DNA of 64,000 bases from Tepidibacter hydrothermalis (GTDB lineage: Bacteria; Bacillota; Clostridia; Peptostreptococcales; Peptostreptococcaceae): assembly GCF_029542625.1 (NCBI RefSeq), contig NZ_CP120733.1:1240001-1304000 (forward strand). The letters run 5' to 3'. The translations under genes were made by a program, and so were the position numbers. The notes under the pieces are model-generated. The model was not told where the DNA came from. It saw nothing but the letters and a program-made list of their open reading frames with translations, and did not search any database. The first letter of the stretch is position 1. Each line of letters opens with the position of its first letter. Below are positions 6,063 to 52,573 of this stretch, piece by piece.

Positions 6063-6158
6063 TTATCCGAAAGCTAAGAATTCTACAGCTTCTGGATTAG
6101 TTCAACTAGAAATTCAGATAGAATAAAAGCTCTATCTGAATTAAGTTTCACTTTATAA
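6063..6158 (+). repeat. Repeat family A, copy 1
   Basis: About 96 bp in the 5977-6286 gap. It starts TTATCCGAAAGCTAAG and ends GAATTAAGTTTCACTTTAT; these ends are imperfect inverted repeats. Near the 3' end a perfect 11-bp hairpin (6112-6122 with 6133-6143) has a 10-nt loop. The same ends recur at six other intergenic places in the window. The rest of the gap (6159-6270) carries AT-rich DNA before the spo0B ribosome site; no gene seen. Confidence 0.8.
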
Positions 6159-10668: not shown

Positions 10669-10818
10669 GTATCTAAAAGCTAAGAATTCTAAAACTTCAC
10701 TCATTTAAAGCTAGAGATAAGAATTCTACAGTTTCTGGATTAGTTTACCCCAGGGTACACGCAACTAGAAATTTAGATGGATTAAAAACTCCATCTGAAT
10801 CAAGTTTCACTTTATATA
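10669..10818 (+). repeat. Repeat family A, copy 2 (long form)
   Basis: About 150 bp in the 10555-10881 gap between divergent genes. It has the family ends (AAAGCTAAGAATTCT and AAGTTTCACTTTATAT), an internal duplication of the AAGCTAGAGATAAGAATTCT unit, and the 3' hairpin AATTTAGATGG / CCATCTGAAT. The base pairs in this stem differ from copy 1 in a compensating way. The rest of the gap holds promoters; no gene seen. Confidence 0.8.
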
Positions 10819-18901: not shown

Positions 18902-19576
18902 ATGAAAGACTATAGTGTTTTTGATGTAGTAGGGCCTAATATGATTGGACCTTCAAGTTCTCATACAGCAGGTGCTGCGAAGTTAGGGAGTATGGCAAGA
19001 AAAATGGCAGGGGGAAATGTTAAAAAGGTAAAGTTTTTACTTCATGGATCTTTTGCTCAAACTTATAAAGGTCACGGTACGGATAAGGCTCTTGTAGGAG
19101 GAATATTAGGATTTTCTCCTGATGATGACAGAATAAAAACATCTTTTGATATAGCTAAAGAAAGAGGAGTAGAGTTTGAAATGATTCCAACAGATTTAGG
19201 AGACGATAAGCATCCTAATACTGTTAAGTTTATAATCGAGACAGAGGATAATAGAAAAGTAGAGGTTATGGGAGCTTCAATCGGAGGCGGAAATATAAAA
19301 ATAACTGAATTAAATGGATTAGCTATACAGTTTACAGGTGCATATCCAACTTTAGTAGTTAAACAATGGGATTTACCGGGAGCTGCAGCCCATATAACTA
19401 ATTGTGTTGCTAAGAATAATATTAATATAGCGTTTATGAGTATATATAGAGAAGAAAAAGGAAATGAAGCATTTACTATAATAGAAGCAGATGACATAAT
19501 AAATTCTAATGTAATAATTGATATAAAATCTAATAATAAGTTAATACAGGATGCAATTATAATAGAAGGAATGTAA
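18902..19576 (+). CDS. sdaAB: L-serine dehydratase, iron-sulfur-dependent, beta subunit
   Basis: A 224-residue protein with DVVGPNMIGPSSSHTAGAAK, the conserved start of the beta subunit, HGSFAQTYKGHGTDKALVGG, and a C-terminal ACT domain (from about residue 150). With the alpha subunit it converts L-serine to pyruvate and ammonia. Ribosome site GAAAGGAG; the alpha gene starts 25 nt downstream. Confidence 0.95.
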   Translation: MKDYSVFDVVGPNMIGPSSSHTAGAAKLGSMARKMAGGNVKKVKFLLHGSFAQTYKGHGTDKALVGGILGFSPDDDRIKTSFDIAKERGVEFEMIPTDLGDDKHPNTVKFIIETEDNRKVEVMGASIGGGNIKITELNGLAIQFTGAYPTLVVKQWDLPGAAAHITNCVAKNNINIAFMSIYREEKGNEAFTIIEADDIINSNVIIDIKSNNKLIQDAIIIEGM

Positions 19577-19601
19577 AAATTATAGAGGAAAGGTGACGTT
19601 T

Positions 19602-20474
19602 ATGAATTTTACTAATGGTAAAGAATTATTAGATATATGTGAGCAACAAAATAAAACTATATATGAAGTTTGTATAGAAAGAGAAATAGATTTGACTTCA
19701 AAAACTAGAGAAGAAATAATAGAAAGAATGTCTCGTAGTTTAGAAATAATGAAAAACTCTATTAATAAGAGTTTAACAGAAGATATAAAGTCGGTTGGAG
19801 GACTTATAGGCGGAGAAGCAAAGCTTATAAAAAATAGATTAGAAACTGGAAAAACAGTATGTGGATCATTAATGTCAAGAGCTATAAGTGCTGCTATGGG
19901 AGTTTTAGAAGTTAATGCTTCTATGGGTCTTATCGTTGCAGCTCCAACAGCAGGATCTTGTGGAATACTTCCAGCTGCTATAATAACAGTTGCTCAGGAA
20001 TATGATCTAAGTGATGAAGATATGATAAATGCAATATTTGCTGGAGCTGCTATAGGAGCTATAATAACAAGAAATGCTACCGTTGCAGGAGCAGAGGGTG
20101 GATGTCAGGCTGAAACTGGTGCAGCAGCAGCTATGGCGGCAGCTGGTGTAGTTGAGATGATGGGAGGTAGCCCAAGACAAGCTATACATGCAGCAGCTAC
20201 TACATTAAAGAATATAATGGGACTTGTATGTGATCCAATAGCTGGACTTGTAGAGGCTCCATGTCAAAAGAGAAATGCAATAGGGGTTGCAAATGCATTA
20301 ATATCAGCTGAAATGGGACTTGCTGGAGTTGAAAGTATAATACCATTTGATGAGGTTGTAGAAGCTATGTATAAGGTAGGAAAAGCTCTTCCTATGGAAC
20401 TTAGAGAAACAGCTTTAGGTGGTGTAGCATCTACTTGTACAGGATGCGCTATAACTAAGAAAGTATTTGGATAA
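19602..20474 (+). CDS. sdaAA: L-serine dehydratase, iron-sulfur-dependent, alpha subunit
   Basis: 290 residues from ATG 19602, after AAAGGTGA. Catalytic-subunit motifs APTAGSCGILPA, LVCDPIAGLVEAPCQKRNA and TCTGCAITKK supply the cysteines that hold the oxygen-labile 4Fe-4S cluster. Two-subunit organisation is the usual one in Firmicutes. The original terminator after this gene is now split by an insertion sequence. Confidence 0.95.
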   Translation: MNFTNGKELLDICEQQNKTIYEVCIEREIDLTSKTREEIIERMSRSLEIMKNSINKSLTEDIKSVGGLIGGEAKLIKNRLETGKTVCGSLMSRAISAAMGVLEVNASMGLIVAAPTAGSCGILPAAIITVAQEYDLSDEDMINAIFAGAAIGAIITRNATVAGAEGGCQAETGAAAAMAAAGVVEMMGGSPRQAIHAAATTLKNIMGLVCDPIAGLVEAPCQKRNAIGVANALISAEMGLAGVESIIPFDEVVEAMYKVGKALPMELRETALGGVASTCTGCAITKKVFG

Positions 20475-20561
20475 AAATTCGTCTACTCGCTAACGCGATG
20501 ACTCATGTTGCCAACGATCCCTATGGGATCCGTTGCTCAAAAATAGTTGGAAGTGTAGTTA
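20474..20561 (+). repeat. Repeat family B, copy 2
   Basis: Begins AAAATTCGTCTACTCGC right after the sdaAA stop, has the small hairpin TCGC-TAAC-GCGA, ACTCATGTTGCC, the second hairpin CAAC-GATCCC-TAT-GGGATC-C-GTTG, and ends CTCAAAAATAGTTGGAAG. Confidence 0.8.
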
Positions 20562-20565
20562 AGCA

Positions 20566-20590
20566 TAAAAAATAAGGTGTTGGGAATCCA
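20566..20590 (+). terminator. Left part of an intrinsic terminator interrupted by the insertion sequence
   Basis: AAAAATAAGGTGTTGGGAAT before the element and CCAACACCTTATTTTTTT after it (22058-22075) are two arms of one hairpin. Removing the element and one copy of the 3-bp duplication CCA restores a stem with a GAAT loop and T-run, the shared terminator of sdaAA and the convergent carboxypeptidase gene. Confidence 0.82.
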
Positions 20591-20596
20591 TAAAAT

Positions 20597-20652
20597 GGTA
20601 CCTATAGATTGGACACATAAAAAAGAGTGTCTAGTTTATAGGTACTTTTTTG
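20597..20652 (+). terminator. Terminator-like hairpin in the left end of the insertion sequence
   Basis: GGTACCTATA (20597-20606) pairs with TATAGGTAC (20637-20645) and inner GACAC (20612-20616) with GTGTC (20627-20631), followed by TTTTTT. It precedes the transposase TATAAT-like box (20655-20660). It could block read-through from outside into the transposase gene and stand in for the host terminator that was broken. Confidence 0.65.
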
Positions 20653-20686
20653 TGTATAATTATCATTGAATATGGAGGCCTTTAGT

Positions 20687-22018
20687 ATGAGTAAAATTAC
20701 ATTTTCAAAAGACAATATTGAAAGATTAAATAAGAACCCTTATGTAAAGCGCGTTAGCGAGAAGTCAATAACATACTCTGACGAGTTTAAAATAATGTTT
20801 ATTGAGGAGTATTTAAGAGGAAGCACACCACGAACTATTTTCATTGATGCTGGATTTGACGTTGAAATACTTGGTGTCAAGCGCTATGAACAGGCGGCAG
20901 CCAGATGGATAAAAGCGTACAAGAAAGATGGAATTATAGGATTAAGTGATACTAGAAGAGTGAATTCAGGCAGACCAAGTAATGCTCCAGTTTCAAAGGA
21001 CGATATTATTAGCAAACAAGAAGCTAAAATAAAACTGCTTGAGGAACAATTAGAATTGCTAAAAAAGCTCGACGTGACAGAAAGGAGGCTGGTAAACAAC
21101 TGCGTAAATCTAACAAATAATGAAGTATATGAGTTAATTTTAAAGACTGTGTCTAAAAAAGATTATTCAGGCACAGTTTCTTATTGCTGCTCAATTTTAG
21201 GGGTTTCACGTTCAGGTTATTATCATTATTTAAAGACAGCACCTTCTAGAACTATAAGGGAGAATGAAGATTTAAAAGCTAGAGATATTATATTAAAGGC
21301 TTATAATTATAGAGGTTATAAGAAAGGTTCTAGATCAATTAAAATGACACTAGAAAATGAGTTTGGTATTATATACAGTAGAAAAAAAATCCAAAGGATT
21401 ATGCGAAAATACAGTATAGTATGTCCTATAAGAAAAGCCAATCCGTATAGAAGAATAGCCAAAGCGACAAAAGAACATAGAGTAGTACCTAATCTGCTAC
21501 AGAGAAATTTCAAACAGGGTATTCCTGGCAAGGTGCTACTTACTGATATCACATACATCCCTTACGGGATAAATAAAATGGCATATTTATCAGCTATCAA
21601 AGATAGCTCTAGTAACGATATTCTAGCATATCATGTATCTGATCGAATTACTTTAGATATAGCTACAATTACAATTAAAAAATTAGTTAATACACATAAA
21701 GCTGATTTACATGATGAAGCTTTTATCCATTCTGACCAAGGGGTCCACTATACAAGCCCTAAATTCCAAAAATTACTAAAAAGCCATAATCTAGGACAAT
21801 CCATGTCTAGACGTGGTAACTGCTGGGATAATGCACCTCAAGAATCCTTCTTTGGTCATATGAAGGATGAAGTAGATTTCAAAACATGTTCTACACTTGA
21901 AGAAGTAATTAATAAAGTTGATAATTACATGGATTACTATAATAATTATAGATGTCAATGGGGATTAAAAAAGATGACTCCTAAACAATTTAGAAATCAT
22001 CTTTTGAATGCAGCTTAA
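20687..22018 (+). CDS. IS3-family transposase, single-frame OrfAB
   Basis: 443 residues from ATG 20687 behind TATGGAGG. The N-terminal part is a helix-turn-helix region (FKIMFIEEYLRGSTPRTIF, ARWIKAYKKDGIIGL) with a coiled coil (EAKIKLLEEQLELLKKL, about residues 105-130). The C-terminal part is an rve integrase core with D287 (LLTDITY), D350 (HSDQGVHYTS) and E386 (QESFFGHMK): 35 residues lie between the last two, the DD35E signature of IS3. Unlike most IS3 members there is one continuous frame, so no programmed -1 frameshift is needed, although an A6G run survives at the junction. Confidence 0.95.
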   Translation: MSKITFSKDNIERLNKNPYVKRVSEKSITYSDEFKIMFIEEYLRGSTPRTIFIDAGFDVEILGVKRYEQAAARWIKAYKKDGIIGLSDTRRVNSGRPSNAPVSKDDIISKQEAKIKLLEEQLELLKKLDVTERRLVNNCVNLTNNEVYELILKTVSKKDYSGTVSYCCSILGVSRSGYYHYLKTAPSRTIRENEDLKARDIILKAYNYRGYKKGSRSIKMTLENEFGIIYSRKKIQRIMRKYSIVCPIRKANPYRRIAKATKEHRVVPNLLQRNFKQGIPGKVLLTDITYIPYGINKMAYLSAIKDSSSNDILAYHVSDRITLDIATITIKKLVNTHKADLHDEAFIHSDQGVHYTSPKFQKLLKSHNLGQSMSRRGNCWDNAPQESFFGHMKDEVDFKTCSTLEEVINKVDNYMDYYNNYRCQWGLKKMTPKQFRNHLLNAA

Positions 22019-22065
22019 CCCTTTTTTTATAATGTCCTTGACAAAGGGTCCATTTTACCAACACC

Positions 22066-23331
22066 TTATTTTTTTCTTTTATTTATGAATCTTATTAAAA
22101 GCATTATAGAGAAAACTACAAATAAGATTGATAGTATTATTTTTAATCCAAACCATAGTATTCTTAATATTTTATTTATATCTACATTGAAGAATATAGA
22201 GTTTACGTCTTCTGAGGCAACTAATTTAACAGAAGATATTACTTTGTTATTTCTTGAAATTTGTACTTTACCTACATAATCACCTTTTTTTATAGGTATT
22301 TCAAGAGGTTCTTTTAATATTATTTTGGTTTTTATATTATCTATATTGTCGTCTTTTTTAGTAACTATATTGAAATTTTCTTCCGCTTTGTATTTTAGAA
22401 TTTTTTCTTTAGTAAATGATATTTTTTTACTTCCTATTTCCGCATCTTTGTTTATAATATTGTGCTCTGTATAATTGTCAAAGCCATAATCTAATAGAGT
22501 TCTAGAATCTTTATAGACTTCATTTCCTTCTGATTTTAATACGACTGAAATTAATCTAAATCCATCTTTTTGTCCACTAGATACTAAGCATTTTCTTGCA
22601 ACATCTGTATATCCTGTCTTTATTCCATCTACCAAATCATACTTTATATCTACAATAGATCCTTTATACTCTATTGTATTACCACCTCTAACACCCCATA
22701 AAAACTTATTTGTACTCTTGAAAACTCTGTCATATGGATATTGCTCAGTTGCGGCGATTTTAATATATTTAGATTTAACTATTTCTCTAAACCTATCATA
22801 TTTCATAGCTTCTCTTGCTATTAAAGCTAAATCGTATGAACTTGTGTAGTGATTCTCATCTGGAAGCCCATTAGGGTTGTTAAAATGAGTGTTTTTTGTT
22901 TTTAGTTCTTTAGCTTTTTTGTTCATAAGTTTTGCAAATTCTTCTGTAGAACCTGAAATGTGATTAGCTAAAACTACAGCTGCATCATTTGCAGATTTAA
23001 TAAGAAGAGCTCTTAAAAGTGTCTCTACTGTAAATGATTCTCCTTGCTTAATATAAATGCTACTACCACCTATATTTCCTAAATCATAATCTATTGTTAC
23101 TACTTCATTTAGATCACAATTTTCAAGAGTTAAAAGAGCTGTCATAATCTTTGTTGTTGAAGCTGGATACATTTTTTTATGTATATTTTTACCGTACAAA
23201 ATTTTTCCTGTATCATAATCCATTAAAATTGCTGATTCCCCCAGAACACTAGGTTTTTCATTTGCAAAAGAAGTTATAAAGGAAGATGATATTAAAAATA
23301 TTGCTAGAACTAATGATATGATTTTTTTCAT
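22066..23331 (-). CDS. dacF: Serine-type D-Ala-D-Ala carboxypeptidase (PBP5/DacF type)
   Basis: A 421-residue S11 peptidase. Signal peptide 1-23 (cleavage after SFA), catalytic Ser58 and Lys61 (PASTTK), Ser113-Asn115 (KSANDAA) and the KTG triad at 238-240. A C-terminal PBP5_C domain and a hydrophobic anchor (about residues 391-412) follow. It trims the terminal D-Ala from peptidoglycan pentapeptides outside the membrane. The gene end lies 8 bp from the insertion sequence, whose entry split its terminator. dacF versus dacB as name is uncertain. Confidence 0.92.
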   Translation of the reverse strand: MKKIISLVLAIFLISSSFITSFANEKPSVLGESAILMDYDTGKILYGKNIHKKMYPASTTKIMTALLTLENCDLNEVVTIDYDLGNIGGSSIYIKQGESFTVETLLRALLIKSANDAAVVLANHISGSTEEFAKLMNKKAKELKTKNTHFNNPNGLPDENHYTSSYDLALIAREAMKYDRFREIVKSKYIKIAATEQYPYDRVFKSTNKFLWGVRGGNTIEYKGSIVDIKYDLVDGIKTGYTDVARKCLVSSGQKDGFRLISVVLKSEGNEVYKDSRTLLDYGFDNYTEHNIINKDAEIGSKKISFTKEKILKYKAEENFNIVTKKDDNIDNIKTKIILKEPLEIPIKKGDYVGKVQISRNNKVISSVKLVASEDVNSIFFNVDINKILRILWFGLKIILSILFVVFSIMLLIRFINKRKK

Positions 23332-23412
23332 ATATACCCCCTTATTTGAAAACGCAATATGATTTTAGTATATCATATTTTTGTCAATAATATAAAATAG
23401 GAGGGATATTTT

Positions 23413-24105
23413 ATGAATTTTAATAAAAGAAGCTTAATTGTATTTGTTAGTATATTATTGATTGTTATTATAAGTATGTTTGCAACTAATAAAATAAATT
23501 TTGGGAAAACTGAATATGTTGTAAGTCCTAAAGAAGATAAGTATATTGATAACGAAGAAAGTGATAGTAGGGAAGAAATAAGTTTAGAGGGTGAAGATAT
23601 AGATGTTGAAAATGAAAATTCTGAGATTGTGGTATTTATAAGTGGAGAGGTAAGTACTTGTGGAGTTGTGAAAATGGGATCTAATTCAAGGCTTGTAGAT
23701 GCAGTTGAAAAACTTGGTGGTCTTACCCAAAATGCAGACATGAATAGAGTTAATTTAGCTATAAAAGTAGAAGATGGTGCTCATTATATAATTCCGAGTG
23801 TCTATAATGATGAAAGTCAAGTAATTGATAATGAAGTAAACAGTAATGATAGTGAAGAATGTTTAAAGCAGGATAGTTATAATAATTCTAATTCAAGGCA
23901 AAGTACCTCGTCTAAAATAGATATAAATAAAGCGAGTTCTAGTGAACTTAAATCTTTAACGGGAATTGGAGATGTTACAGCTTCAAAGATTATAGAATAT
24001 AGAAGTCAAAATGGAAAATTTAAAACTATAGATGAGATAAGAATGGTAAAAGGAATAGGTGAAAAAAAGTTTGAATCGATAAAAAATGATATAAAAGTAA
24101 ATTAA
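23413..24105 (+). CDS. comEA: ComEA-type DNA-binding competence protein
   Basis: A 230-residue protein: N-terminal membrane anchor (residues 6-24), acidic linker, an SLBB domain (about 72-125, VVFISGEVSTCGVVKM), a low-complexity Asn/Ser linker, then two helix-hairpin-helix motifs (SSELKSLTGIGDVTASKII, IRMVKGIGEKKFESI). ComEA receives double-stranded DNA at the outer membrane face during transformation. comEC lies 26 kb away in this window. Confidence 0.9.
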   Translation: MNFNKRSLIVFVSILLIVIISMFATNKINFGKTEYVVSPKEDKYIDNEESDSREEISLEGEDIDVENENSEIVVFISGEVSTCGVVKMGSNSRLVDAVEKLGGLTQNADMNRVNLAIKVEDGAHYIIPSVYNDESQVIDNEVNSNDSEECLKQDSYNNSNSRQSTSSKIDINKASSSELKSLTGIGDVTASKIIEYRSQNGKFKTIDEIRMVKGIGEKKFESIKNDIKVN

Positions 24106-39782: not shown

Positions 39783-41345
39783 ATGAGAAAACCTAAACTT
39801 GATCCTAAAATATTCTGGCCCTCTATAATAATTATTGTAAGTGTATTAATTATGCTTGTAATTAATCCTGAAGCAGGGAGACAGACAATTGGTAGGGTGC
39901 TTGATTTTATTACGCATAAGTTAGACTCATTCTTTGAATGGGTAGTTCTTCTAGGTTTTGGATGGCTTATGTGGATAGCATTTGGAAGGTATGGAAATAT
40001 AAAATTAGGTAGATCTGATGAAAAGCCTGAGTTTTCTACAATTAGCTGGATTGGTATAATGATTACTTCGGGGTCGGGTATGGCTCTTATGTATTGGGCT
40101 TGTGTTGAACCGGTGTTTTATTTGATTGGGCCACCTTTTGGGATTGAACCAAATTCTGCTGAGGCTGCTAAATATGCTATTACCTATGGTATATTCCATT
40201 GGGGATTTAGTGCATGGGCGCTATACTGCTTACCTGCAGTTGGTATAGCTTATGCTTATCATGTACGTAAGTCTCCTCATCTTAAAGCTAGTGTTGCTTG
40301 TGAAGGTGTTTTAGGAAAATACTCAAAAGGCATAGTTGGAAAAATAATAGATATAATAATTTTAGTTGGTTTAGTAGGGGGGATTGGAACCTCTTTAGGA
40401 GTGGTTGTTCCATTAATGTCAGCTTGCTTTAATGAAGTGTTTGGTATTCAGCAGGGGTTATGGTTAGATACTTTAGTTATTATAATTTGGACTGTAATGT
40501 TTGGTACTACTGCTTATCTAGGATTAGAAAAAGGAATTAAAAAGTTATCTGATATTAATACAATAGGAGCAATAGGGTTATTAATCTTTATACTTATAGT
40601 TGGACCAACAGCATTTTTATTATCATATTTTGGTGAAAGCGTTGGATTAATGTTTCAAAATTTCATAAGACTGAGTACTTACACTGATTCTATTTCTAAG
40701 TCAAGTTGGCCTCAAAGTTGGACTGTTTTTTACTGGGCTTGGTGGGGTGTATATGCAGTTTATATGGGATTGTTTATTGCTAGAGTTTCTAAAGGTCGTA
40801 CATTAAAAGAAATGATTATTGGTGCTGTTATATGGCCAACTGTTGGTACTGCCTTTTTCTATTTGACTTTAGGGGGTTACAGTATAGATCTTCATTTTAA
40901 TCAAGGTTTAGATATGATTAAGGTGTTAAATGAGCAAGGTGGAGGTTATTTGGTAGTTACTTTATTAAAATCTTTACCGTTATCTAAAGTTCTAATACCA
41001 TTATTTATGGTTATAGGATTTATATATCAAGCTACAACTTTTCAAGGAGCGGCTTATACACTTGCATCAATGGCTACGGATGAACTTCTTCCTAATGAAC
41101 AACCAGCGCCATGGCATAGATTATTCTGGGCTATTCTTTTAGGTGGTGTAGGATATGTAATGATGGTAATTGGAGGATTGAAAGTTGTTCAGTTAGCTTC
41201 CGTAATTTTAGCAGCACCTGTGTTTGTTATAATACTATTCACAGTATTTTCGTTTATGAAGTGGGTAAAACAAGATTTTGGTAAAATGTGTGCTCCAAAA
41301 GTAATAACGTTAGATAATGATAGAGAAGAGGTAGCTCAAGAATAA
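39783..41345 (+). CDS. BCCT-family betaine/carnitine/choline transporter 2
   Basis: 520 residues, ATG 39783 behind AAAGGAGG. Paralogue of the upstream carrier, with the same W-box segment SWTVFYWAWWGVYAVYMG (from residue 312) and a short hydrophilic tail. 43 nt after the methyltransferase, so probably in the sigma-54 transcript. Two carriers around one demethylase could serve substrate uptake and product exchange, or two related substrates; this is inference. An insertion sequence has entered its terminator. Confidence 0.94.
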   Translation: MRKPKLDPKIFWPSIIIIVSVLIMLVINPEAGRQTIGRVLDFITHKLDSFFEWVVLLGFGWLMWIAFGRYGNIKLGRSDEKPEFSTISWIGIMITSGSGMALMYWACVEPVFYLIGPPFGIEPNSAEAAKYAITYGIFHWGFSAWALYCLPAVGIAYAYHVRKSPHLKASVACEGVLGKYSKGIVGKIIDIIILVGLVGGIGTSLGVVVPLMSACFNEVFGIQQGLWLDTLVIIIWTVMFGTTAYLGLEKGIKKLSDINTIGAIGLLIFILIVGPTAFLLSYFGESVGLMFQNFIRLSTYTDSISKSSWPQSWTVFYWAWWGVYAVYMGLFIARVSKGRTLKEMIIGAVIWPTVGTAFFYLTLGGYSIDLHFNQGLDMIKVLNEQGGGYLVVTLLKSLPLSKVLIPLFMVIGFIYQATTFQGAAYTLASMATDELLPNEQPAPWHRLFWAILLGGVGYVMMVIGGLKVVQLASVILAAPVFVIILFTVFSFMKWVKQDFGKMCAPKVITLDNDREEVAQE

Positions 41346-41396: not shown

Positions 41397-41421
41397 AAAG
41401 ACCTTTTGTTATAAAAAGGTC
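41397..41421 (+). terminator. Terminator hairpin cut from its T-run by the insertion sequence
   Basis: AAAGACCTTTT-GTTAT-AAAAAGGTC is intact up to 41421, but its T-run (CTTTTTTATT) now lies beyond the element at 42891-42900. Removal of the element and one GTC copy restores a normal terminator between convergent genes. Confidence 0.82.
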
Positions 41422-42888
41422 TAAAATGGTACCTATAGATTGGACACATAAAAAAGAGTGTCTAGTTTATAGGTACTTTTTTGTGTATAATTATCATTGA
41501 ATATGGAGGCCTTTAGTATGAGTAAAATTACATTTTCAAAAGACAATATTGAAAGATTAAATAAGAACCCTTATGTAAAGCGCGTTAGCGAGAAGTCAAT
41601 AACATACTCTGACGAGTTTAAAATAATGTTTATTGAGGAGTATTTAAGAGGAAGCACACCACGAACTATTTTCATTGATGCTGGATTTGACGTTGAAATA
41701 CTTGGTGTCAAGCGCTATGAACAGGCGGCAGCCAGATGGATAAAAGCGTACAAGAAAGATGGAATTATAGGATTAAGTGATACTAGAAGAGTGAATTCAG
41801 GCAGACCAAGTAATGCTCCAGTTTCAAAGGACGATATTATTAGCAAACAAGAAGCTAAAATAAAACTGCTTGAGGAACAATTAGAATTGCTAAAAAAGCT
41901 CGACGTGACAGAAAGGAGGCTGGTAAACAACTGCGTAAATCTAACAAATAATGAAGTATATGAGTTAATTTTAAAGACTGTGTCTAAAAAAGATTATTCA
42001 GGCACAGTTTCTTATTGCTGCTCAATTTTAGGGGTTTCACGTTCAGGTTATTATCATTATTTAAAGACAGCACCTTCTAGAACTATAAGGGAGAATGAAG
42101 ATTTAAAAGCTAGAGATATTATATTAAAGGCTTATAATTATAGAGGTTATAAGAAAGGTTCTAGATCAATTAAAATGACACTAGAAAATGAGTTTGGTAT
42201 TATATACAGTAGAAAAAAAATCCAAAGGATTATGCGAAAATACAGTATAGTATGTCCTATAAGAAAAGCCAATCCGTATAGAAGAATAGCCAAAGCGACA
42301 AAAGAACATAGAGTAGTACCTAATCTGCTACAGAGAAATTTCAAACAGGGTATTCCTGGCAAGGTGCTACTTACTGATATCACATACATCCCTTACGGGA
42401 TAAATAAAATGGCATATTTATCAGCTATCAAAGATAGCTCTAGTAACGATATTCTAGCATATCATGTATCTGATCGAATTACTTTAGATATAGCTACAAT
42501 TACAATTAAAAAATTAGTTAATACACATAAAGCTGATTTACATGATGAAGCTTTTATCCATTCTGACCAAGGGGTCCACTATACAAGCCCTAAATTCCAA
42601 AAATTACTAAAAAGCCATAATCTAGGACAATCCATGTCTAGACGTGGTAACTGCTGGGATAATGCACCTCAAGAATCCTTCTTTGGTCATATGAAGGATG
42701 AAGTAGATTTCAAAACATGTTCTACACTTGAAGAAGTAATTAATAAAGTTGATAATTACATGGATTACTATAATAATTATAGATGTCAATGGGGATTAAA
42801 AAAGATGACTCCTAAACAATTTAGAAATCATCTTTTGAATGCAGCTTAACCCTTTTTTTATAATGTCCTTGACAAAGGGTCCATTTTA
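41422..42888 (+). mobile_element. IS3-family insertion sequence, copy 2 (1467 bp)
   Basis: Same length and ends as copy 1, with target duplication GTC (41419-41421 and 42889-42891). Inserted at the foot of a terminator stem. Same orientation as copy 1, 20,831 bp away, so recombination between them could delete or amplify the interval. The left-end terminator-like hairpin is at 41428-41483. Confidence 0.92.
41518..42849 (+). CDS. IS3-family transposase, single-frame OrfAB (copy 2)
   Basis: 443 residues, identical in protein sequence to the transposase of copy 1, with ATG 41518 behind TATGGAGG. HTH region, coiled coil and DD35E core (D287, D350, E386) are intact, so it should be active. Identity between the copies points to recent transposition. 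Confidence 0.95.
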   Translation: MSKITFSKDNIERLNKNPYVKRVSEKSITYSDEFKIMFIEEYLRGSTPRTIFIDAGFDVEILGVKRYEQAAARWIKAYKKDGIIGLSDTRRVNSGRPSNAPVSKDDIISKQEAKIKLLEEQLELLKKLDVTERRLVNNCVNLTNNEVYELILKTVSKKDYSGTVSYCCSILGVSRSGYYHYLKTAPSRTIRENEDLKARDIILKAYNYRGYKKGSRSIKMTLENEFGIIYSRKKIQRIMRKYSIVCPIRKANPYRRIAKATKEHRVVPNLLQRNFKQGIPGKVLLTDITYIPYGINKMAYLSAIKDSSSNDILAYHVSDRITLDIATITIKKLVNTHKADLHDEAFIHSDQGVHYTSPKFQKLLKSHNLGQSMSRRGNCWDNAPQESFFGHMKDEVDFKTCSTLEEVINKVDNYMDYYNNYRCQWGLKKMTPKQFRNHLLNAA

Positions 42889-42895
42889 GTCTTTT

Positions 42896-43693
42896 TTATT
42901 CATTTAATTGTTTTTTTTCTGTTAATTTAAAAGTCTTCTCATTTTTATCCCAGGTGTATAGCTCTTGCTGGGAAGTTTTGCTGATTTCTTTAAAGTCTTC
43001 TTTTTTTGGTGTATTAGTAGATTTTGCTTTTGATTTAATATTTGTAGTTATTGCAAGTATTTTAGGAATATCCTCATCTAGATAATCTATTGATGACTTT
43101 TGGATATTTTTATTCCAGATATCATTAGGAGCATTTTTATCAAGCCAAATTTCTTTATATATTTCATCGTAATAAATAGATTTTTTGAAGGTATTTTTAA
43201 ATGAATTTTTATCAAAATAGAATACTTCAACAAAATTATCTATAAAAAAAGCACCTAAACGTTCATCTAATAACTGTTCTACTACTAAAAAATCCTTAAA
43301 TGAAGATATGTTTTTTACTGGAGACAGATTTGTTATTTTATTTTTGTAAAAATACTTATCATTCATAGTATCTTCATATATGGCTATTAAGGCGTTGTCT
43401 TTGGATAAGTTTAGACTAAATAGAATATCTTGTTTATCATTAGGTAAAACATCTAACTTATATATTTTAAGGTCTATATAATCTATGTATTCATTCCAAT
43501 TGTTATAGCCAGTAGCATTTAGCACATTTTTTATTATTTGTTTTCTTAAAACCTCGTTTTTTGGTTCATCTTCTGAAGAATTTAAATAACTTTCCACTAC
43601 ACCTTTATCTATTAAGCTATTATAGCACTTAGGAAAAAGTATAAAACAGTTAATTCCTATTAAAATACTTAAAATAAATATTAATTTTTTCAA
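42896..43693 (-). CDS. Secreted or membrane-anchored hypothetical protein
   Basis: About 265 residues. The TTG at 43693 behind AAGGGGTG is the best start and gives an N-terminal hydrophobic segment (LKKLIFILSILIGINCFILF, residues 1-20) that acts as signal or anchor. The rest is hydrophilic, rich in Asp, Lys and Asn, ending with KTFKLTEKKQLNE. I recognise no domain. It is convergent with the second BCCT gene and shared its now-broken terminator; the insertion sequence lies 8 bp from its stop codon. Confidence 0.7.
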   Translation of the reverse strand: MKKLIFILSILIGINCFILFPKCYNSLIDKGVVESYLNSSEDEPKNEVLRKQIIKNVLNATGYNNWNEYIDYIDLKIYKLDVLPNDKQDILFSLNLSKDNALIAIYEDTMNDKYFYKNKITNLSPVKNISSFKDFLVVEQLLDERLGAFFIDNFVEVFYFDKNSFKNTFKKSIYYDEIYKEIWLDKNAPNDIWNKNIQKSSIDYLDEDIPKILAITTNIKSKAKSTNTPKKEDFKEISKTSQQELYTWDKNEKTFKLTEKKQLNE

Positions 43694-43747
43694 AAAATCA
43701 CCCCTTACATATTTATTAATATATGGCTTGGGCATATTCTAATATTT

Positions 43748-52260: not shown

Positions 52261-52437
52261 TCTGTTCACCCCCTTGTATGTATAATGGTTCTTCAAATAT
52301 CAACAAAGTAGATTTTATCAGAAAAAAAACTAAAAATCAAGGATAAATATATATTAATGATATTTTAAAACGGTGACTTTTAATATAATAGACAAAAATT
52401 GAATAAAATATAATAAATTCGTTTAATTTGTCTTAAA

Positions 52438-52573
52438 AAAATTCGTCTACTCGCTAACGCGGTGACTCATGTCGCCAACGATCCTTACAGTTTCCGTTCT
52501 CAAAATTCACATAGTTCATGGCGCCAACAAGTCTCACGACTCTGTTGCTTAAAAATAGTTGCAAGTATAGGCT
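52438..52573 (+). repeat. Repeat family B, copy 3 (extended)
   Basis: Starts AAAAATTCGTCTACTCGC with the TCGC-TAAC-GCGG hairpin and ATGTCGCCAACGATCC, then a second partial unit (TTCATGGCGCCAACAAG ... CTCTGTTGCTTAAAAATAG). An internal duplication makes it longer than copies 1, 2 and 5. Confidence 0.72.

Follow-up and report, generated by a model that had tools for sequence, protein, structure and literature searches.

Two copies of one insertion sequence lie in the window analysed here, a 64,000-nucleotide stretch of the Tepidibacter hydrothermalis genome, and each has a hairpin followed by a run of T near its left end. A preliminary description proposed that the hairpin is a terminator of the element's own, which would stop incoming transcripts before they activate the transposase and might replace the host terminator that the insertion breaks. 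This raises the question of what such a hairpin does for the element and for the genes beside it. On comparison of the element with its relatives and their insertion sites, the proposal is supported in outline and appears to extend to both ends of the element; it had missed a second hairpin at the right end, a preference in targets and the arrangement of a predicted promoter. We consider it probable that this IS3-family element has intrinsic terminators as its homing target and is self-insulated at its two ends.

The element and its left-end hairpin

The element is a single-ORF insertion sequence of 1467 bp that begins and ends TAAAATGG...CCATTTTA. There are 19 copies in the genome, reported as 100% identical. 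Both hairpin stretches in the window belong to element copies, and the repeat at copy 2 is 100% identical to the copy 1 region over 300 nt. The features first needed are these.

20591-22057, plus strand: copy 1 of the IS3-family element, matching the IS3 transposase model, with 18 further copies in the genome and a 3-bp target duplication, CCA
20588-20590: left CCA duplication of copy 1, the right one being at 22058-22060
20687-22018, plus strand: transposase ORF, 443 codons counted from the ATG
20597-20651, plus strand: left-end hairpin and T-run of copy 1, with the left inverted repeat as 5' arm
41422-42888, plus strand: copy 2, with a GTC duplication at 41419-41421 and 42889-42891
41428-41482, plus strand: left-end hairpin of copy 2 (stem-loop 41428-41477, T-run to 41482), the same as in copy 1

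The transposase passed the IS3 model NF033516 with 294.4 bits against a cut-off of 160, and rve, rve_2 and HTH_21 also matched. IS3 elements make direct repeats of 3-5 bp. Target duplications of 3 bp were found at all 18 singly read sites in this genome and at the outer copy of a nested pair, and the relatives show 3 or 4 bp. In two respects the element departs from the family pattern. IS3 ends read 5'-TG...CA-3', whereas the tips here are TA...TA, with TGG and CCA 5 nt inside; and two overlapping ORFs with a frameshift are usual, if not universal, in the family, whereas this element is one open frame, some relatives being split in two. One search for relatives kept the best 80 of 568; the relatives are not independent of each other.

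In copy 1, a 5' arm, GGTACCTATAGATTGGACAC (20597-20616), is followed by a 10-nt loop (20617-20626), a 3' arm, GTGTCTAGTTTATAGGTACT (20627-20646), and a T-run (20646-20651). The positions and stems had been given correctly, and the two stems named separately form one continuous helix of 20 pairs when G-U pairs are allowed. The plus-strand RNA folds at -31.5 kcal/mol (z -9.6), with none of 200 shuffles equally stable; the opposite strand reaches only -17.2 kcal/mol because several pairs of the stem are G-U. The same hairpin had been claimed for copy 2, which is indeed an identical repeat: a covariance model built from the relatives and this element gives 75.1 bits for both window copies. A stable stem followed by a U-run is the build of an intrinsic terminator, and the position of the hairpin, between the left end and the transposase ATG at 20687, is that of an insertion-sequence 5' terminator. 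Thus, the left hairpin has terminator-type anatomy, and termination is predicted. A simple consensus terminator scan of the window listed neither this hairpin nor its right-end counterpart, the left one having been missed because its 10-nt loop exceeds the 8-nt limit of the scanner. An Rfam search of 19500-23500 returned no family at E up to 1. The T-run had been placed just before the transposase promoter region; TGTATAAT, which follows it, looks promoter-like by eye, but is absent from the lists of the promoter scans of the window. The upstream genes are both on the plus strand and oriented into the left hairpin of their respective copies: the gene at 19593-20474, which matches annotated sdaAA, points toward copy 1, and the gene at 39783-41345, for which "BCCT" is the label of the preliminary description, toward copy 2.

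A hairpin with a T-run occurs at the same place, in other sequence, in records from Romboutsia, Clostridium, Bacillus-type organisms and Paenibacillus, with paired arms such as GGTACC.../...GGTAC, GGATCC.../...GGATC, GTACCC.../...GGGTA and AACCCG.../...CGGGTT. A covariation survey of related elements, suggested in the preliminary description, found the hairpin kept. A set of 41 left ends was aligned by sequence only. The set was assembled by sequence pattern and folding, with four manual additions and no near-identical entries, and is therefore enriched for hairpin formers. In this alignment, pairing holds in 87.9% of cells, and both sides have changed in 12 of the 20 pairs and in 135 cells. 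Values this high arose in none of 500 shuffles, and with the partner shifted by 1-3 columns the counts were 2-7 pairs and 3-24 cells. The shuffle statistics and the covariation rule out a chance stem. A folding-based count covered 56 loci, including copies that share a genome, and required a fold of -18 kcal/mol or lower in the 150 nt upstream. By this measure a terminator precedes the transposase gene in 24/24 relatives at 55% identity or more and in 16/32 below that, compared with a hit in 8/222 control windows. This count replaced an earlier bulge-free search, in which 31/56 loci scored at least 10 against 9.2% of 671 controls. A covariance model of the left ends also matches 51 of 71 genomes of the host's taxonomic family at E up to 1e-4, although the weaker matches may be ordinary terminators.

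Two kinds of variant were seen. L023, a relative at 62% identity, has a left end (from about 1418) that seems to have lost most of the 3' arm and folds at -8.7 kcal/mol, a natural broken version of the hairpin. The distant IS3-type relatives L044, L045, L051 and L097 (about 3249) have ends that start GATATGCTCCC and a hairpin that closes directly before the ATG, which, judging by this placement, might hide the translation start besides ending transcripts.

Insertion sites in the window and in other genomes

The preliminary description held that the element breaks a natural terminator. This is borne out at both window copies, where a host terminator is split.

20573-20590: left half of the host terminator split by copy 1, the right half starting at 22058

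Copy 1 interrupts AATAAGGTGTTGG-GAAT-CCAACACCTTATTTTTTT, between sdaAA on the plus strand and a minus-strand gene at 22066-23331, putatively encoding a D-Ala-D-Ala carboxypeptidase. Copy 2 splits a similar hairpin between the plus-strand gene at 39783-41345 and a minus-strand gene at 42896-43735. From the strands of the flanking genes, both copies therefore lie between convergent genes.

The same holds beyond the window. Of 75 reconstructed sites of the element and its relatives, 50 score at least 10 as terminators on a home-made, untrained scale and 25 fall below that threshold, compared with 3.2% of 900 positions drawn at random from the same flanks and 3.0% of 600 located 70-130 nt away. 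The 75 exclude L097, L100, L136, L139, L154, L160 and L164, for which the ends were wrong or unresolved, and include one site, L002, inside another copy of the element. By genome, 15 of the 19 sites in this genome (G000) and 9 of the 17 in G040 score as terminators. Sites without a duplication were kept in the 75 and omitted from the dyad analysis, leaving 62 sites, of which 47 are at or above the threshold and 15 below. At 34 of the 47 the cut is no more than 4 nt from the dyad; the sequence around the cuts is A-rich starting at about -12 and T-rich starting at about +12. At the 15 sub-threshold sites the bias persists, with A at 0.50 to the left and T at 0.53 to the right, and one of them, L031, is by eye a terminator with a loop longer than the score allows. 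Judged by these scores, the element and its relatives insert mostly in predicted intrinsic terminator hairpins, usually near the dyad.

Neighbouring genes were called by a crude ORF rule at 60 sites with enough flank, 51 of them callable on both sides: 23 are convergent, 18 both leftward, 10 both rightward and none divergent. Thus, many hosts read into the right end. Tandem pairs gave no orientation bias placing the left end toward the host gene (10 versus 18).

We also looked at relatives in which hairpins are missing, among them several of Lachnospiraceae type without both. Of 20 loci examined as lacking the left hairpin, five gave end pairs flanked by a duplication. L145, L148 and L151 lie outside terminators, L155, whose left hairpin is weaker (-16.9 kcal/mol), is in one, and L139 apparently has a wrong end. 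Nine multi-copy loci were put through a lenient scan, six of them from genomes that have neither hairpin (those of L149 and L150) and three from the L143 genome, which has only the right one; one of nine scored at least 10. When control groups of IS3 elements were put through the lenient scan, which takes the best of many offsets, the small numbers gave a mixed picture: none of three scored sites in G091 (two of five unscorable), none of five in a first group from G056 (two of seven unscorable), three of four in a second group from G056 and two of four in G046, with ends in G056 and G046 not reliably fixed. Since two distant IS3 groups have terminator-like sites, homing may extend beyond this clade.

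In the genome of L143 (Aedoeadaptatus urinae), the relative lies in GC-rich sequence at L192, L203 and L207, and at L192 and L203 its site falls within a GGGACGGGGGAAA...TTTCCCCCGTCCC palindrome that may be a REP-like target. In the window, a 62-nt repeat, 89% identical between 20473-20534 and 52437-52498, is intergenic and GC-richer than its surroundings (TCGTCTACTCGCTAACGCG...); its first copy falls directly after sdaAA and before the split terminator. The window also holds an 80-nt repeat family at 6110, 10769, 43852, 52868 and 55205 and a 94-nt family at 10670 and 43749. Identity is 61-81%; one family contains an inverted stretch internally and shares a GTTTCACTTTATA-like end, and members of the two are neighbours at 10.7 kb and 43.8 kb.

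A second hairpin, antisense in the transposase gene

About 50 nt inside the right end, the minus strand reads AAAAGATGATTTCTAAA-TTG-TTTAGGAGTCATCTTTT, a second terminator-like hairpin that faces transcripts entering from the right, which copy the minus strand.

21967-22005, minus strand: terminator-like hairpin of copy 1, antisense to the last transposase codons (stem 22005-21969, T-run 21972-21967)
42798-42836, minus strand: the corresponding hairpin of copy 2, the same in sequence

Here too a stem is followed by a U-run, which comes from the lysine codons of KKMTP and partly pairs with an A-run. We suspect that the simple scan missed the hairpin because this pairing hides its tail. The hairpin is found in all 38 distinct elements selected by the C-terminal protein motif, the window's own included. 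Synonymous recodings of the 15 codons, by each element's codon use, were less stable than the natural sequence, with z below -2 in 37 of the 38 and a median of -4.1. A palindrome is expected to stand out on either strand, and the median z of the plus strand is indeed close (-4.0); even so, the minus strand is more stable in 37/38. Moreover, 8 of 17 pairs and 40 cells have changed on both sides, as against 1-4 pairs and 1-9 cells in slid controls. When elements were taken without regard to the motif, the right hairpin passed -14 kcal/mol in 31/51 relatives (17 of the 19 close ones, 14 of the 32 distant ones), compared with 9/255 flank windows and 10/255 antisense windows inside ORFs. These comparisons argue that the right hairpin is kept beyond the constraint of the protein. 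Both hairpins are present in 30 of the 51 relatives, neither in 15, the left alone in five and the right alone in one; shared descent may account for much of this co-occurrence.

These data bear on what the hairpins are for. The left hairpin could be an ordinary 5' terminator that guards against read-through activation of the transposase, with any benefit to the host incidental and targeting a separate property of the transposase. Terminators with this role are described for IS3 and other families (PMC2965389), yet this reading leaves unexplained both the antisense hairpin kept beyond the protein constraint and the joint presence of the two; as a full account we consider it unlikely. Homing combined with insulation at both ends takes in these observations. 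The claim that the element's terminator replaces the broken one is partly supported: terminator anatomy, covariation and split host terminators speak for it, but the left hairpin by itself serves only genes that enter from the left.

It would be more surprising still if the hairpins acted as DNA, as palindromes bound by the transposase or copies of its target, with RNA pairing a by-product. The 5' arm of the left hairpin is, after all, the inverted repeat itself, and the transposase targets palindromes: in a nested pair (G000:C1:3729272-3732207) one copy has entered the right-end hairpin of another, off centre and with a CAT duplication, a single event from which it follows that the transposase can treat this hairpin like host terminators. 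The two strands, however, are not equivalent. Among the left ends, with the outermost pair excluded, G-U cells outnumber A-C cells by 50 to 25 and the plus strand is the more stable in 27/41, a modest sign that the plus-strand RNA is what counts; the minus strand is favoured in nearly all right hairpins, as given above; and the T-runs are on the strand that read-through would copy. A DNA-level role thus appears improbable. Finally, the left hairpin might hide the ribosome-binding site in read-through transcripts rather than terminate them, as is known for IS200 (PMC12594629) and as similar hairpins directly before the ATG in the distant relatives L044 and L045 would allow, but in the predicted fold GGAGG lies more than 20 nt beyond the T-run, unpaired with the hairpin, which leaves this idea unsupported and very improbable.

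A predicted promoter at the circle junction and the proposed mechanism

IS3 elements transpose via circles in which the ends are joined. In such a circle of this element, the junction would, by prediction, create a promoter.

22038-22043, plus strand: TTGACA, -35 of the predicted circle-junction promoter, with the -10, TAAAAT, at 20591-20596, across a 3-bp spacer

Among 39 end pairs, 27 have a predicted junction -35 in the right end (TTGACA, TTTACA or, once, TTGACT) and a -10 at the left tip, spaced by 17 in all but one (18). The predicted start, about seven bases past the -10, falls within the 5' arm of the hairpin, so that only transcripts from outside would form the full left terminator. 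For the window element, the junction transcript folds at -14.9 kcal/mol with 14 pairs and leaves five unpaired bases before the U-run, whereas the full left hairpin, in the comparison fold, reaches -27.4 kcal/mol with a stem that extends to the U-run. Over the 41 left ends, the mean fold goes from -24.8 in full to -13.0 when started at the predicted junction start. The other 12 end pairs, all with TGAACT- or TGAAAT-type tips, have no junction promoter, and most keep the hairpin; hairpin and junction promoter are therefore not tied throughout. For these 12, the proposed escape would not work in the form given here, which is the main argument against tying hairpin to promoter.

We propose the following mechanism. 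The left inverted repeat also supplies the 5' arm of a terminator-type hairpin that faces transcripts from the left, and the second hairpin, antisense in the last transposase codons, faces those from the right. If both terminate transcription, as we infer, transcripts of host genes with a split terminator would still end nearby, and outside transcription would be kept from reaching the transposase gene from the left or crossing it from the right. Circularisation would join the right-end -35 and the left-tip -10 into a promoter, and a transcript starting near base 13 would leave the outer six pairs unformed, with five unpaired bases before the U-run, and so would run on into the transposase. 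The left hairpin would thus separate outside transcripts from the element's own.

Parts of this scheme have precedents. IS200 and Tn10/IS10 are reportedly protected against outside transcription at the RNA level, according to work by Beuzon in 1999 and Davis in 1985; they share the RNA-level guard proposed here and belong to other families, with other structures, than this element. For IS200, the sections consulted of PMC12594629 have RNA structure keep outside transcription from making transposase. Naville and Gautheret (2010, PMC2965389), in the portions available, describe insertion-sequence 5' terminators, or "mobile attenuators", upstream of the transposase, IS3-type elements included, and these are thought to block externally driven expression. 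A terminator upstream of the transposase in IS3-type elements is common to both cases; terminator homing, the hairpin built on the inverted repeat, the putative antisense terminator in the transposase gene and the proposed escape from the junction promoter go beyond that description. Hairpins, including several confirmed terminators, are also the target of IS1272/TnSha1 (IS1182 family), which removes part of the hairpin on insertion without making a duplication, whereas this element has an IS3 rather than an IS1182-family transposase and a 3-bp duplication in place of a target deletion; it also carries predicted terminators of its own, which the excerpts of PMC4923244 do not mention for IS1272/TnSha1. 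IS1397, ISKpn1 and ISPsy8 are IS3 members that target REP palindromes and, like this element, insert at or near the palindrome axis, ISPsy8 with a 3-bp duplication; as presented in the excerpts of PMC1525189, their target is a repeated palindrome, whereas that of this element is terminators in general. A search of the open-access literature found no paper in which IS3 elements home to terminators and carry terminators of their own, nor one with an antisense hairpin in the transposase gene. Thus, the 5' terminator, terminator targeting and palindrome targeting are each precedented, and the combination looks new.

Whether the whole scheme holds for the clade is, in our judgement, evenly balanced: a Firmicutes clade of IS3 elements would have evolved terminator homing together with self-insulation, in which the termination destroyed on both sides is restored by a pair of terminators pointing inward, the left inverted repeat forming part of the first and the transposase C-terminus carrying the second in antisense, and in which, in most lineages, a junction promoter starting inside the stem disarms the left terminator for the element's own transcript only. 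If true, this would help to explain how an insertion sequence reaches 19 copies beside active genes, by picking the 3' ends of genes and replacing the signal it breaks. Target choice and transcriptional insulation would be coupled in one element, with a conserved RNA signal overprinted antisense on coding sequence and a simple RNA test by which an insertion sequence tells outside transcripts from its own. The two inward hairpins could protect both host genes and element from run-on transcription, and such elements would spread terminators for both directions around genomes.
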